From positions 1 through 36,967 of the forward strand of contig JANWKE010000161.1 of NCBI GenBank assembly GCA_025451535.1: a DNA stretch of 36,967 nt, written 5' to 3'. The stretch is from Verrucomicrobiia bacterium (GTDB lineage: Bacteria > Verrucomicrobiota > Verrucomicrobiia > Limisphaerales > UBA11358). Within the stretch, counting starts at the first letter, position 1; each line of letters starts with the position of its first letter. Made by a program: the position numbers and the translations under genes. The notes under the pieces were generated by a model that was given only the letters and a program-made list of their open reading frames with translations, searched no databases and was not told the DNA's origin. This document shows, one piece after another, positions 16,641-31,944 of this stretch.

Positions 16641-18431
16641 ACCCGCAGCTTGCCAGTCGAGCACTTTCAATTGCACCGAGCGGTTGCCGTTGAATTGGTT
16701 GATTTGCGGCACGAAGGCGAGATCAAATTTGCCGACCGGCAACGATTCATCGCCGCCATTCCAGCAAACTGCTTCCAGCACCGTGCCGCCGGCAGCACCG
16801 TAGCCGCCAGGCGGCGAAGGCGTGTCCGTCACCCACATTTTGACGTGTTGCTTGTCCGCGCCGATGCGCTGGAGCGGCCGGGCGTGGACGAGGTTGCGCG
16901 CGCAGAATTGCACCCCGGGATTGCCCTGTCCCGTTGGCTTCAAACGGGACAGTTCGTTAAGCATTTCCAACGTCATTTCATCCAGTCCCACCTCGGCATC
17001 GAGGCGGAGCAGTGGTTGCAAATCCTCCGGTTTCAATGCGCGACGGGCCAATTCGTTCAGCCGTTCCCGCAAAACGTTAATTTTATCCGGCCGGATGCTG
17101 AGTCCCGCTGCCATCGCGTGTCCGCCGTGGCGCACCAGCAAATCGTCGCATTCGCGCAGCGCGGCCGCGAGATCGAAACCGGCGATGCTGCGGCCCGACC
17201 CGCGCCATTCCTCACCTTCACCGCCGATGATGACGGTGGGCCGGTAAAATTCCTGCAACACCCGCGACGCCACGATACCGACTACGCCGATGTGCCAGCG
17301 CAATTGGCCCTCCACGATGGCAAAATCGGTTTGTGGGTTGAATTTGCTGCGCACGGTGCCGGCGACTTCCTCCACGATGCCGTGTTCGATTTTCTGGCGT
17401 TCACGATTTTGCGCGTCGAGCCTCTGAGCGAGCGGCATGGCCTCGGCCAGCGTCGGGGCGAGCAACAGTTGCAGGGATTCCTCGGCGGTTTCAAGCCGGC
17501 CGGCGGCGTTCAGACGCGGCGCGAGTTGAAACCCGACGTCGTAAACGCCCAGGACCGGCGGCGATTGCGCGACTTTTTTCAAGGCGACCAGTCCGGGCCG
17601 TTGCGTCGTGTTCAACCGTTGCAGACCGACGGCGGCCAGAATCCGATTTTCACCGGTGAGCGGAACGAGGTCGGCAATCGTGCCCAGCGCGACCAGGTCG
17701 AGCCAGGGTCGCAAATCAAATTTCGCCGCGCCCGGAAGATTGATTTCGCGTCCGCGCTTGATGAGTGCATGGGCAAGTTTGAAGGCAAGACCGACGGAAC
17801 AAAGTTCGGTGAATGTTTGGAAGGCAACGCCTGGTGGCTGCCCTGAATGTTTGGGCACTGACGAAGCAGTGCCCTCCAGTTGCGGATTCACCAGGGCGAC
17901 GGCTTCCGGCGCCGGCAACGAAACCTGGTGGTGGTCGAGGACTATGACATCGACGCCACGGCCGCGAAGCGAGTGGATGGTTTCCACGGCGGTTGAGCCG
18001 CAATCCACCGCCAGTAAAAGCGTGACCGGGAACTTTTTGAGGCAGTTTTCAACGCCGTCGGCGCTCAGGCCGTAGCCTTCGTCCATGCGATTCGGCAGGT
18101 AAAAATCCACCTTCCAGCCAAGTGCGTGCAATACTCCGAGGAGCAGGGCGGTGGAAGTCACCCCGTCCACATCGTAATCGCCGAAAATCACGAGCGGCTC
18201 ATTTTGCTCCCGGGCGCGCAGCAATCGTTCCACGGCCGCGGCCATGGCCGGCAATAAAAACGGATCCGCCAGGTGCTGGAGACGTGGATGGAGGAAGTTC
18301 TCGATGGCGGGCGGTTCACTGAAGCCACGATTGAGCAGGCACTGCGCAAGCAGCGGTGGTATTTTGAGCTGTCCCGCCAGTTGGCCGGCCAGCAGCGGTT
18401 GCGGCGGCGCGAGCGTCCAGCGGGATTTCAT
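16638..18431 (-). CDS. recJ: Single-stranded-DNA exonuclease RecJ
   Basis: 5'-3' ssDNA exonuclease of recombination and mismatch repair. The 597 residues match the family (577 in E. coli). The DHH phosphoesterase core is clear: Asp85, Asp87 and Asp89 in GDYDVDG, DCG at about 143-145, and Asp166-His167-His168 in VLDHHQ. DHHA1 features appear in GSGRSIAGFDLAAAL and RHGGHAMAAGLS. The C-terminal OB-fold ends in FNGNRSVQLKVLDW. Residues about 185-206 (LEGTASSVPKHSG and following) are an extra segment between VNPQ and FTELCSVGLAFK; the DNA there is a palindromic element described separately. The start overlaps the terC stop by 4 nt, so translation is probably coupled. Confidence 0.95.
   Translation of the reverse strand: MKSRWTLAPPQPLLAGQLAGQLKIPPLLAQCLLNRGFSEPPAIENFLHPRLQHLADPFLLPAMAAAVERLLRAREQNEPLVIFGDYDVDGVTSTALLLGVLHALGWKVDFYLPNRMDEGYGLSADGVENCLKKFPVTLLLAVDCGSTAVETIHSLRGRGVDVIVLDHHQVSLPAPEAVALVNPQLEGTASSVPKHSGQPPGVAFQTFTELCSVGLAFKLAHALIKRGREINLPGAAKFDLRPWLDLVALGTIADLVPLTGENRILAAVGLQRLNTTQRPGLVALKKVAQSPPVLGVYDVGFQLAPRLNAAGRLETAEESLQLLLAPTLAEAMPLAQRLDAQNRERQKIEHGIVEEVAGTVRSKFNPQTDFAIVEGQLRWHIGVVGIVASRVLQEFYRPTVIIGGEGEEWRGSGRSIAGFDLAAALRECDDLLVRHGGHAMAAGLSIRPDKINVLRERLNELARRALKPEDLQPLLRLDAEVGLDEMTLEMLNELSRLKPTGQGNPGVQFCARNLVHARPLQRIGADKQHVKMWVTDTPSPPGGYGAAGGTVLEAVCWNGGDESLPVGKFDLAFVPQINQFNGNRSVQLKVLDWQAAG
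17810..17878. repeat. REP-like palindrome inside the recJ reading frame
   Basis: Read on the recJ strand, a GGAG foot (17874-17877) leads into a perfect 7- to 8-bp stem GGGCACTG / CAGTGCCC (17853-17860 and 17867-17874 on the + strand) with a 6-nt loop. An 11-bp direct repeat TGAATGTTTGG occurs at 17844-17854 and 17810-17820, with a GC-rich 23-bp segment between. The whole stretch is translated in frame as about 22 extra RecJ residues. Confidence 0.6.
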
Positions 18432-24434: not shown

Positions 24435-26276
24435 CTAGGACTGCGTTACGACTTCTTTCATTTCCGGCTCAACCCATTTGCCGTGTTCCTTGATGAGGTC
24501 TACCAACCGTTCCACGGCCTCGGTTTCGGGGATGTTGAATTTGATGGCCTGCTTGCCGACGTAGAGATTGATCTTGCCGGGCGCGCCGCCGACGTAACCG
24601 AAGTCCGCATCGGCCATTTCACCGGGTCCGTTCACGATGCAGCCCATGATGGCAATCTTTACACCCTTCAGATGCTCCGTCCGCACCTTGACGCGCGCCG
24701 TCACCGTCTGGAGGTTGAACAACGTCCGGCCGCACGACGGACACGCCACGTAATCGGTTTTGAACGAGCGGCAGCCCGCCGCCTGCAAAATATTGTAAGC
24801 CAGCCGGAGTGATTGGCCGCCACCGGATTCGGCGCGAATTAGAATCGCGTCACCGATGCCATCCGCCAGCAGCGAACCTATGACGACTGAGGCCCGGAGC
24901 AGGGCAATCCTTGGCTCCAATGGCGCCGGTTCGAAACGGATGCAATCCTTCAGCAAAATCGGATTGTTCCGTCCCAGCCGCTTCAACTTCGCTGCGAGCA
25001 GTCGGAAGGCAGTAATGGCCGGCAACTTTACACCGTCCTTCACCGTAACCAACTGTGTCTCGCAATTTATTTCAAAATCCTGGGTCGGATCAATCTCGGC
25101 GACATTCAAGTCTTCATAAACCGCTTCCGGTTTCACGTCATCTTTGGGCCGAATCTTCGGGGCGACTTTGTCCCACGTCGCCCGGGTGACAACGACACGG
25201 ATGAGTTGTTCACCGCCACAGTTCACGCCGTCGGCCAGTTCAATTTCCGGCGTTTCACGGCGCTCGAAATGGAAAGGGTCGAACGGAAAGTCGGTCGGAG
25301 GGACGAGCTCTGCGAGTCCCAAACCTTTGTTTCCTGGAGAGTCAGGGACTCGTGTAACTCCTCCCTCCGAAATTGTAAGTTCAGGAATCTGCGCCAGCAA
25401 ATCACGGCAAACTTCGATTTCCCGCGGCGAATCTTCGGTGAGCGAAACGCGGATGGTGTCGCCCAGGCCGTCGCAGAGCAGGGAACCGATGCCGATGGCG
25501 GATTTGATGCGGCCGTCCTCGCCTTCGCCCGCCTCGGTGACACCGAGGTGGATTGGATAATTCCAGTCCGGGCCTTCCTGCTCCAGCCGCGCCACGAGCA
25601 GCCGGTAACATTCAATCATTACCTTGGGGTTGGACGACTTCATCGAGAATTTGAAATTGTGGAAGTTGTGCTGGCGGCAAATGCGGGCAAACTCCAGCGC
25701 GCTCTCGACCATGCCCAGCGGCGTATCACCGTAGCGGTTCATGATGCGGTCGCTGAGCGAACCGTGGTTGGTGCCGATGCGCAGCGCGCGTTTCAGCCCG
25801 ATGCACTCCCGCACCAGTGGTGTGAATTTCTCCTCGATGCGCTTCAACTCGGCGGCATACTGCGCGTCCGTATATTCCTTGGTCGCAAATTTCTTCGAGT
25901 CGGCGTAATTACCGGGATTCACGCGCACGACTTCGACCCATTTCACCGCTTCCATCGCGGCGTCCGGTTTGAAATGAATGTCGGCGACAATCGGCACGAG
26001 GCAATTTTGTTGGCGCAATTCGGCGGCGATCTTCTGCAAATTGGCCGCGTCTTTTACCGTGGGCGCTGTGATGCGGACGAGCTGGCAGCCGACGGCGACA
26101 AGCTCAAGCGTCTGCCGCACACATTCGGCGGTGTCCATCGTGTCGCAGGTGAGCATGGACTGCATGACGGCAGGATGCTGGCCGCCGATGATGACCCCAC
26201 CGTGGTTCGGGTCGCCGATGACGACCTCACGCGTTTTGCGTCGCCGGTAAGAATACGGTGATTCGCAGTAGCGCAT
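24435..26276 (-). CDS. ispG: 4-hydroxy-3-methylbut-2-enyl diphosphate synthase, long form
   Basis: Iron-sulfur enzyme of the MEP pathway that converts MEcPP to HMBPP. It has 613 residues, the long type with an extra middle domain known from Bacteroidota, Chlamydiota and plants. The N-terminal barrel contains VMQSMLTCDTMDT, VRITAPTVKD, VADIHFKPDAAMEAVKWVEVVRVNPGN and LHLGVTEAGEG-like motifs. The C-terminal [4Fe-4S] ligands are Cys512 and Cys515 in ACPSCGRTLF and Cys546 in GCIVNGPGE. Residues 303-328 (SEGGVTRVPDSPGN and following) are encoded by a palindromic DNA element and look like an in-frame insertion. The gene follows rseP after only 3 nt. Confidence 0.96.
   Translation of the reverse strand: MRYCESPYSYRRRKTREVVIGDPNHGGVIIGGQHPAVMQSMLTCDTMDTAECVRQTLELVAVGCQLVRITAPTVKDAANLQKIAAELRQQNCLVPIVADIHFKPDAAMEAVKWVEVVRVNPGNYADSKKFATKEYTDAQYAAELKRIEEKFTPLVRECIGLKRALRIGTNHGSLSDRIMNRYGDTPLGMVESALEFARICRQHNFHNFKFSMKSSNPKVMIECYRLLVARLEQEGPDWNYPIHLGVTEAGEGEDGRIKSAIGIGSLLCDGLGDTIRVSLTEDSPREIEVCRDLLAQIPELTISEGGVTRVPDSPGNKGLGLAELVPPTDFPFDPFHFERRETPEIELADGVNCGGEQLIRVVVTRATWDKVAPKIRPKDDVKPEAVYEDLNVAEIDPTQDFEINCETQLVTVKDGVKLPAITAFRLLAAKLKRLGRNNPILLKDCIRFEPAPLEPRIALLRASVVIGSLLADGIGDAILIRAESGGGQSLRLAYNILQAAGCRSFKTDYVACPSCGRTLFNLQTVTARVKVRTEHLKGVKIAIMGCIVNGPGEMADADFGYVGGAPGKINLYVGKQAIKFNIPETEAVERLVDLIKEHGKWVEPEMKEVVTQS
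25295..25370. repeat. Palindromic element inside the ispG reading frame
   Basis: A 76-bp stretch is bounded by perfect 9-bp arms TCGGAGGGA and TCCCTCCGA. Inner arms CGAGTCCC (25313-25320) and GGGACTCG (25345-25352) are also perfect, and partial pairing lies between. The ends carry GGAG/CTCC feet. It is translated in frame on the - strand as about 25 IspG residues, in a place where the flanking LTI and DFPFDPFHFERRETPEIEL segments look like ordinary IspG. Confidence 0.75.
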
Positions 26277-30888: not shown

Positions 30889-31944
30889 TTAAGGCAACAG
30901 CCTTGGAACGTTTCGAATGTGATAAGAGTGAAACGATTTACCATCGCTGGCCGACGGGTTCGTTTCCCGGCCGATAGAAGCACCGGCGCCGGCTGGTGCT
31001 CTCCCCGACAACGTGGTGTCACGCGAGTTCCGGCGGCGGCGGCACAGGAGCAGAGAGACGGCACCGATGGCCGCCAAACCCGATACTGAGGGTTCGGGTA
31101 CGGGCGGGGGATCGAAAGCCAGTCCCTCGGGAACGCCGGTTACGGAGGCATAGGTGCTCCTGGCGCCCGCGGGCGTAAATGCATAAATGTTGCCACTGAT
31201 GTCGGCTGCAAACAGGTTGCCCGCATTGTCAAAGGCGAGAGCATCAGGATCATTCAACCCGGAGGCGAAGGTGCTTCGGGTTCCACCCGGTGTAAATGCA
31301 TAGATGTTGCCGCTGCTGCCATCCGCCTCAAACAGGTTGCCCGCGCTGTCAACGGCCAATGCGTAAAGGCTCCCCAACCCGGAAGCAAAGGTGCTCCTGG
31401 CGCCGCCCGGCGTAAATTCATAAATATTGCCGCTGCCCTGATCTCCCACAAACAGGTTGCCCGCGTTGTCAAAGGTCAGGGCATACGGATAATTCAACTC
31501 GGAGGCAAAGGTGCTTTGCCCTCCGCCGGGAGTGAATTCATAAATGTTGCCGCTACCGTAGTCCGTCTCGAACAGGTTGCCCGCGTGGTTGAAGGCCAGG
31601 GCACAGGGATAATTCAACCCGGAAGCAAAGGTGCTTTGCCTTCCGCCGGGAGTGAATTCATAAATGTCGCCGCTGTAGTAATCCGCCTCGAATAGATTGC
31701 CTGCGCCGTTGAAGACCGGTCCAAAAGGCTCACCCAACCCGGAGGCGAAGGTGTTCTGCGCTCCGCCCGGCGTGATTTCAATGATGGTGCTGGCGGGAGT
31801 GAACGGCACATTATACTGAAATACCGACACAAACAGGTTTTGCGCCGGCACACTGGCGGCGAACAGCATGACGGCTCCGACCGCGGTTGCCCTGCCAAAG
31901 GAAAGACACGCGGCTAAAAGAAAGGATTTGGACTTCGTTTTCAT
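30889..31944 (-). CDS. PEP-CTERM protein with NHL-like repeats and an extended tail
   Basis: A 351-residue exported protein starting at 31944 (MKTKSKSFLLAAC). A signal peptide ends near SVPAQ. Five 39-40-residue repeats follow, each reading like ST(F/Y)ASGL.xPxALAFDxAGNLFxAD and SGNIYEFTPGG, plus part of a sixth. They suggest a beta-propeller of the NHL/SMP-30 type, usually used for binding or as a surface scaffold. A PEP-CTERM sorting signal is present at about 282-306: VPEP, a short helix and RRRRN. Such signals normally end the protein; here 45 more residues follow and the DNA of this tail contains a hairpin. The natural stop may have been lost. No exosortase gene is in the window. Confidence 0.85.
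   Translation of the reverse strand: MKTKSKSFLLAACLSFGRATAVGAVMLFAASVPAQNLFVSVFQYNVPFTPASTIIEITPGGAQNTFASGLGEPFGPVFNGAGNLFEADYYSGDIYEFTPGGRQSTFASGLNYPCALAFNHAGNLFETDYGSGNIYEFTPGGGQSTFASELNYPYALTFDNAGNLFVGDQGSGNIYEFTPGGARSTFASGLGSLYALAVDSAGNLFEADGSSGNIYAFTPGGTRSTFASGLNDPDALAFDNAGNLFAADISGNIYAFTPAGARSTYASVTGVPEGLAFDPPPVPEPSVSGLAAIGAVSLLLCRRRRNSRDTTLSGRAPAGAGASIGRETNPSASDGKSFHSYHIRNVPRLLP
30979..31000 (-). terminator. Hairpin inside the tail of the PEP-CTERM gene
   Basis: AGCACC / GGTGCT arms plus two further pairs across one mismatch enclose a 4-nt loop. It lies about 45 bp downstream of the codons for the RRRRN anchor, where a terminator would be expected if the protein ended at the anchor as usual. 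Confidence 0.35.
31144..31740. repeat. Exact-period 120-bp tandem repeats within the PEP-CTERM gene
   Basis: The marker GGAGGC(A/G)AAG or GGAAGCAAAG recurs at 31261, 31381, 31501, 31621 and 31741, exactly 120 bp apart. The unit from 31144 to 31260 is 117 bp, one codon shorter. Five units are complete. The low divergence between units points to recent duplication or ongoing gene conversion. Confidence 0.85.

Follow-up and report, generated by a model that had tools for sequence, protein, structure and literature searches.

The closest described relatives of the element analyzed here are the REP/REPIN (BIME) elements and their transposases (RAYT, TnpA_REP), i.e., palindromes of 20–50 nt in many dispersed copies, whose foot tetranucleotide is most often, not always, GTAG (PMC8266576). 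In Opitutus terrae (Verrucomicrobia), pairs of GTAG REPs lie in frame in ORFs, often those of DNA repair genes, and encode 20–30 residues (Di Nocera 2013, PMC3733652). In recB of two Xanthomonas species, different REPs were found at about the same site (PMC3733652). Rickettsia palindromic elements (RPE), marked by a CGTC tag, are in-frame palindromes in still-functional protein genes, according to the passages of PMC3733652 that deal with them. A different class of repeat, the four-unit GGGNATC heptamer repeats of Xanthomonas and Nostoc, is G-rich and under-represented in coding regions (PMC4692102).

The locus described here is the recJ gene in the window, the whole stretch of DNA that was analyzed (36,967 nucleotides). 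It is contig C161 of G000, a Limisphaerales (Verrucomicrobia subdivision 3) bin of 4.4 Mb in 188 contigs. We class the recJ segment as a REPIN, a pair of inverted REPs, inserted in frame. Its family fits the REP/REPIN description given above in palindrome size and dispersal, and resembles these systems further in its inverted pairs with a short linker, its conserved foot, its copies flanking a RAYT gene and its compensatory stem changes. It differs in the foot (TGGA/GGAG instead of GTAG), in the number of sites (about 20 instead of hundreds) and in having several copies within housekeeping ORFs. The GTAG end of the GTAG superfamily of REPs (PMC3733652) is absent from the family, the foot being TGGA followed by GGG. 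The CGTC end of the Rickettsia RPE/CGTC superfamily is absent too; the recJ element works like an RPE as an in-frame palindrome without being a member, and has a linked transposase gene. The in-frame REP pairs of O. terrae are alike in position within ORFs, while the tag and the bacterial order differ. Compared with the Opitutus and Xanthomonas cases, the site in Limisphaerales is recurrent across about 30 species and receives unrelated repeat classes beyond REPs, among them heptamer arrays. These arrays share dispersal and a size of about four units with the GGGNATC repeats. Their units, however, are of many types, and in one genome (G031) roughly half of the CTCAACT set is in frame in genes. 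In the open-access literature, we found no report of heptamers or in-frame repeats in the order Limisphaerales, nor of a single protein loop that is refilled throughout a genus with repeats of unrelated classes. In-frame REPs are already known from Opitutus and Rickettsia; what looks new is that the same protein slots are refilled again and again by repeats of unrelated classes.

The palindromic element in recJ and its family

The coordinates of the features are collected in Table 1. RecJ scored 472 bits against TIGR00644 (cut-off 397) and retains every column invariant among 40 RecJ proteins, including D85, D87, D89, D143 and DHH166-168. In the AlphaFold model (mean pLDDT 91.3), for which a structural aligner was used for fold confirmation only, the insert sits between the strand 179-181 and the helix 212-229 and is predicted to be a disordered stretch (pLDDT <50 at residues 188-204). 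Low pLDDT (<50) was also obtained at residues 540-547, in the region of the second, smaller insert, whose DNA contains small palindromes. Rfam gave zero matches at the recJ locus.

Table 1. Features of recJ and ispG in the window (positions from its first base)
Feature	Position	Strand	Basis or remark
recJ, intact host gene, 597 aa	16638..18431	minus	TIGR00644 and catalytic columns
Variable loop codons, RecJ residues 185-206	17814..17879	minus	low pLDDT and differing inserts in relatives
Second RecJ insert, ~11 aa, TPSPPGGYGAAGG region	16782..16814 (limits approximate)	minus	this genome only
61-bp REPIN element (TGGA...TCCA), inverted REP pair and linker	17818..17878	no strand	~60-bp relatives elsewhere in genome
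REP arm A, perfect: TGGA GGGCACTG CTTCGT CAGTGCCC on coding strand	17853..17878	minus	identical copies and covariation
Linker TGAATGTTT joining arms A and B	17844..17852	no strand	9 bases
REP arm B, inverted, degenerate: TGGAAGGCAACGCCTGGTGGCTGCCC	17818..17843	plus	length and ends as arm A
Direct repeat copy 1, TGAATGTTTGG	17810..17820	plus	8 flank bases and 3 element-end bases
Direct repeat copy 2, TGAATGTTTGG	17844..17854	plus	linker and first 2 hairpin bases
In-frame REPIN in ispG (24435-26276, minus), second family	25295..25370	no strand	dispersed family

An earlier note on this DNA had described a perfect hairpin with a GGAG foot in recJ, coding for about 22 in-frame residues between VNPQ and FTELCSVGLAFK. 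Both observations were confirmed: the perfect 8-bp stem (GGGCACTG-ACGAAG-CAGTGCCC) lies at 17853-17874, followed by the foot TCCA at 17875-17878 (TGGA/GGAG on the coding strand), and the segment encodes the 22 residues LEGTASSVPKHSGQPPGVAFQT in frame. However, the partner of this hairpin, arm B, had been overlooked. Arm B aligns to the intact second arms of other family copies and has the same TCCA end. Since it is degenerate, the recJ copy of the REPIN is not recent. The element length, 61 bp, is not divisible by three; the event was therefore no clean 61-bp insertion with the frame kept, and bases must have been gained or lost too.

When up to two mismatches were allowed, 21 genomic places fitted the hairpin pattern and 2 fitted the reversed control pattern, which bears out the expectation of further copies. 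The hairpin of arm A occurs in identical form at three other places in the genome, and a 101-bp query revealed further places with about 60 bp at 79–85% identity. Overall, the family occupies about 20 sites. Most copies have the organization TGGA-hairpin-linker-hairpin-TCCA, with a linker that varies in length and sequence. Among 27 REP arms, the stem pairs 4 (C-G, A-T, T-A), 6 (C-G, G-C, T-A) and 7 (T-A, C-G) covary; the change on both sides of these pairs indicates that the palindrome itself is maintained. Of the 27 arms, 25 carry the TGGA foot. This count is biased, since the arms were collected with a pattern that included TGGA or something close to it; the flanks of the copies, which are free of this bias, show the foot as well.

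Family members are located on contig C125 at 2297, 2944 and 3107 and flank a Y1_Tnp match (2528-2779) on either side. The ORF concerned (213 aa) scored 103.5 bits against NF047646, the REP-associated tyrosine transposase (RAYT), with a cut-off of 80. Such an arrangement, a RAYT gene flanked by family members, is the REPtron of known REP systems, and by analogy with these the C125 RAYT is a candidate cognate enzyme for binding, cutting and copying the TGGA hairpins. Three further Y1_Tnp loci of the genome (C1, C122, C97) carry different flanking palindromes, one family per locus. At L021:1360-2001 and L009, the apparent N-terminal part of the RAYT ORF consists of a REP copy, and the neighbouring CstA-like ORF is extended at its end by another. 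A Y1_Tnp match within a 985-aa open frame (G000:C188:9399-9740, L019) may represent a fusion.

The recJ loop in related genomes

RecJ was detected in 57 of the 59 genomes searched. The loop comprises 4–10 residues in the sampled bacteria outside the order and up to 42 aa inside it, and the relatives' inserts between VNPQ and F-x-E-L-C differ from one another. The earlier claim that the segment is an insertion is supported; it is not conserved in RecJ across the phylum. The recJ loop is an insertion hotspot; the earlier note had recognized neither this nor the transposase gene.

Of 31 recJ alleles from the genus, 19 have a period-7 structure (p ≤ 0.02, shuffles) and three have a hairpin (p ≤ 0.025). 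The heptamer units include CTCAACT, CAAAACT, CCAACTC, CCCAGCT, AAATCGG and AAATTCA, as well as inverted GTGACGA pairs, and the heptamer alleles are of nearly constant length, 11 residues after Q, though their units differ. Other palindromes are present in the loops of G030 and G007, and also at L249, L255 and L258, while the loop of G001 and G023 is near-empty (four residues only). Assembly error was rejected as a source of the loop inserts, which occur in dozens of independent bins, in open frames and in proteins scoring above the family cut-off.

Sister species whose flanks are 79–94% identical hold unrelated inserts. In the pair G030/G031 (flanks 92% identical), one allele carries a REPIN and the other heptamers, a clean replacement; in the pair G017/G003 (94%), the loops agree at 9 of 36 positions in register. 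A change from one heptamer to another could be evolution within an array, whereas the exchange of a REPIN for heptamers cannot. The suggestion that heptamer types cannot interconvert by mutation was dropped, because some units have 5 of 7 bases in common; clear replacement was consequently counted for REPIN-for-heptamer swaps only. On a loop-free RecJ tree, the 14 allele classes require at least 28 changes (close to the mean for shuffled labels, 31.9), with support given as SH-aLRT from a quick search, in which single forks are unreliable. The recJ palindrome of G030 gave 68 hits in its own genome, against none in either G000 or G022. To the extent tested, the recJ inserts derive from each genome's own repeats.

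Heptamer arrays and other genes with inserts

CTCAACT arrays abound in G030, G031, G010 and G022, and 20 of 40 genomes have none; CAAAACT arrays abound in G004, G019, G020 and G023, with none in G000, G030 and G031. For both units, a reversed-pattern control is invalid, as the units read backwards are their own rotations. In 344 kb from the group, period 7 leads the short tandem repeats (12 against 0–3 for each other period from 4 to 13), which is partly explained by the centring of this sample on recJ; period-7 short tandem repeats were not found in 402 kb from other orders and phyla. Array lengths cluster at about 31 bp. The opposite strand of CTCAACT contains TGA, and the intragenic arrays examined have the tolerated orientation. 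When all 20 listed CTCAACT arrays of G031 were read, about nine were in frame within proteins (Mfd, ProA, QueE, BioA and others), and several further arrays directly precede start codons. In QueE, arrays occupy one site in six genomes, found in searches blind to the site.

Some further observations concern these arrays. In-frame arrays of about 31 bp were seen in the relatives' Mfd, ProA, BioA, PheS, HisC, MetG, PrmC, MutY and QueE (L329-L348 of G031; L189-L232), where the encoded peptides are repeats of NSQLSTL or NSKLKTQ. Mfd of G031 (L332) apparently contains several independent repeat-derived inserts. Inverted pairs of heptamer arrays, about 25 bp apart and REPIN-like, occur at L191:956-1055 and L214:906-993 and in recJ of G022, G028 and L252.

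In the genome of the window, a second housekeeping gene with an insertion, as had been claimed earlier, is ispG, whose REPIN belongs to another dispersed family with 49 places (up to three mismatches) against 0 in the control. In addition, fmt (TIGR00460, 323 bits) contains an in-frame family member, and so do two further ORFs with recognizable family matches. One of these encodes a MurQ-like protein whose score stays under the curated cut-off; the other, a B12-binding radical SAM protein, is named by sub-cut-off resemblance only. The process is frequent, as the earlier note had proposed: insertions are present in recJ, ispG, fmt and two or more further ORFs here, and in many genes of relatives. 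The pattern of the recJ loop recurs in fmt and ispG. The fmt site is insert-free in most relatives and holds different palindromes in about six. The sister G022 has the same family at this site, and the fmt copy was therefore probably inherited. Most relatives lack an insert in ispG as well.

Origin of the recJ insert

Mobile repeats in housekeeping genes are expected to be purged. Based on the above results, we suggest that the recJ segment is most probably a REPIN, likely copied by a RAYT into a tolerant loop, and that such loops are passively refilled by whatever repeats are active in the lineage. The C125 RAYT would be the most likely agent of copying, a transposition step that we infer from known RAYT biology. 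The REPIN lies in frame in a surface loop that leads from a beta strand to the helix after the DHH motif, where extra residues would be tolerated. In this scheme, small repeats would insert often and everywhere and survive only in frame and in loops. Selection would remove insertions at rigid or out-of-frame positions, and as a result tolerant loops would gather repeats and be refilled over time. Several points count against the REPIN account, namely the TGGA/GGAG foot in place of the usual GTAG, the length of 61 bp, which does not fit a clean frame-preserving insertion, the degenerate state of arm B and the absence of a true empty recJ site among the closest relatives.

It is conceivable, though we regard it as unlikely, that housekeeping proteins of Limisphaerales, such as recJ, QueE, fmt and ispG, contain fixed slots where an active process overwrites the content in place by exchange between REPINs and heptamer arrays of four to five units. 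Period-7 arrays would suit such refilling because one of their strands gives the same cyclic heptapeptide in all frames. Rather unlikely, too, is a targeted slot, in which a DNA property or a site-directed process repeatedly swaps the resident repeat for another. The fact that one loop is nearly saturated throughout the genus, the clean swaps between sisters, the near-constant length of heptamer alleles with differing units and the shared QueE site are consistent with it, but most relatives carry no insert in fmt and ispG, a common target motif was not seen at the insert boundaries, and passive tolerance makes the same prediction. Passive tolerance of the loop, in our inference untargeted, best explains the refilling.

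A selective advantage of the added peptide for RecJ function in the order seems quite improbable. Nearly all members of the genus have some extension; however, the sister sequences are unrelated, range in length from 4 to 42 and are predicted to be disordered, and two members have no extension.

The 11-bp direct repeat TGAATGTTTGG had been put forward as a possible target duplication or trace of slippage. It is indeed present; however, instead of flanking the perfect hairpin, the two copies are found on the same side of it, with arm B between them, and each overlaps the element ends by 2–3 bases. A site with a single TGAATGTTTGG and no insert was not seen among the relatives examined, because close relatives have other inserts there, and TGAATGTTTGG itself was not found in any of their recJ loops. 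In a side-by-side comparison of other element copies, read by eye, no comparable direct repeat was seen in the flanks and linkers. A target duplication, the mark of insertion in MITE-type elements, is thus not supported. An 11-bp direct repeat within 100 bp occurred in 0 of 3000 shuffles and in about 1% of real 100-bp windows, so that its presence inside 45 bp is unusual for the window and would fit local slippage or tandem duplication of recJ sequence as the source of the segment. This origin is nevertheless very improbable: slippage cannot import dispersed sequence, and arm A is identical to copies on other contigs and is paired with a second arm as in the family. Hardly any weight can be given to retention of the insert for an RNA or DNA hairpin function in recJ (gyrase binding, transcript control), since the perfect stem of arm A and the roles proposed for intergenic REPs (PMC3733652) are set against hairpin-less heptamer arrays at the same place in sister species and no match in Rfam.

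With passive refilling as the preferred reading, repeat insertion routinely rewrites the housekeeping proteins of this group. Unrelated repeats have independently rewritten a single loop of RecJ, a repair nuclease, in dozens of species, and the enzyme has stayed intact. This offers a natural experiment on which protein loops accept arbitrary peptides and on the spread of REPINs and heptamer repeats, including possible in-place exchange of repeats. For annotation, species-specific inserts in housekeeping proteins of the order may be repeat DNA and not functional domains. Elsewhere in the window, a diverged 120-bp tandem repeat (31143-31770) lies inside a repeat-protein ORF with a signal-like start (31965-30889, minus).
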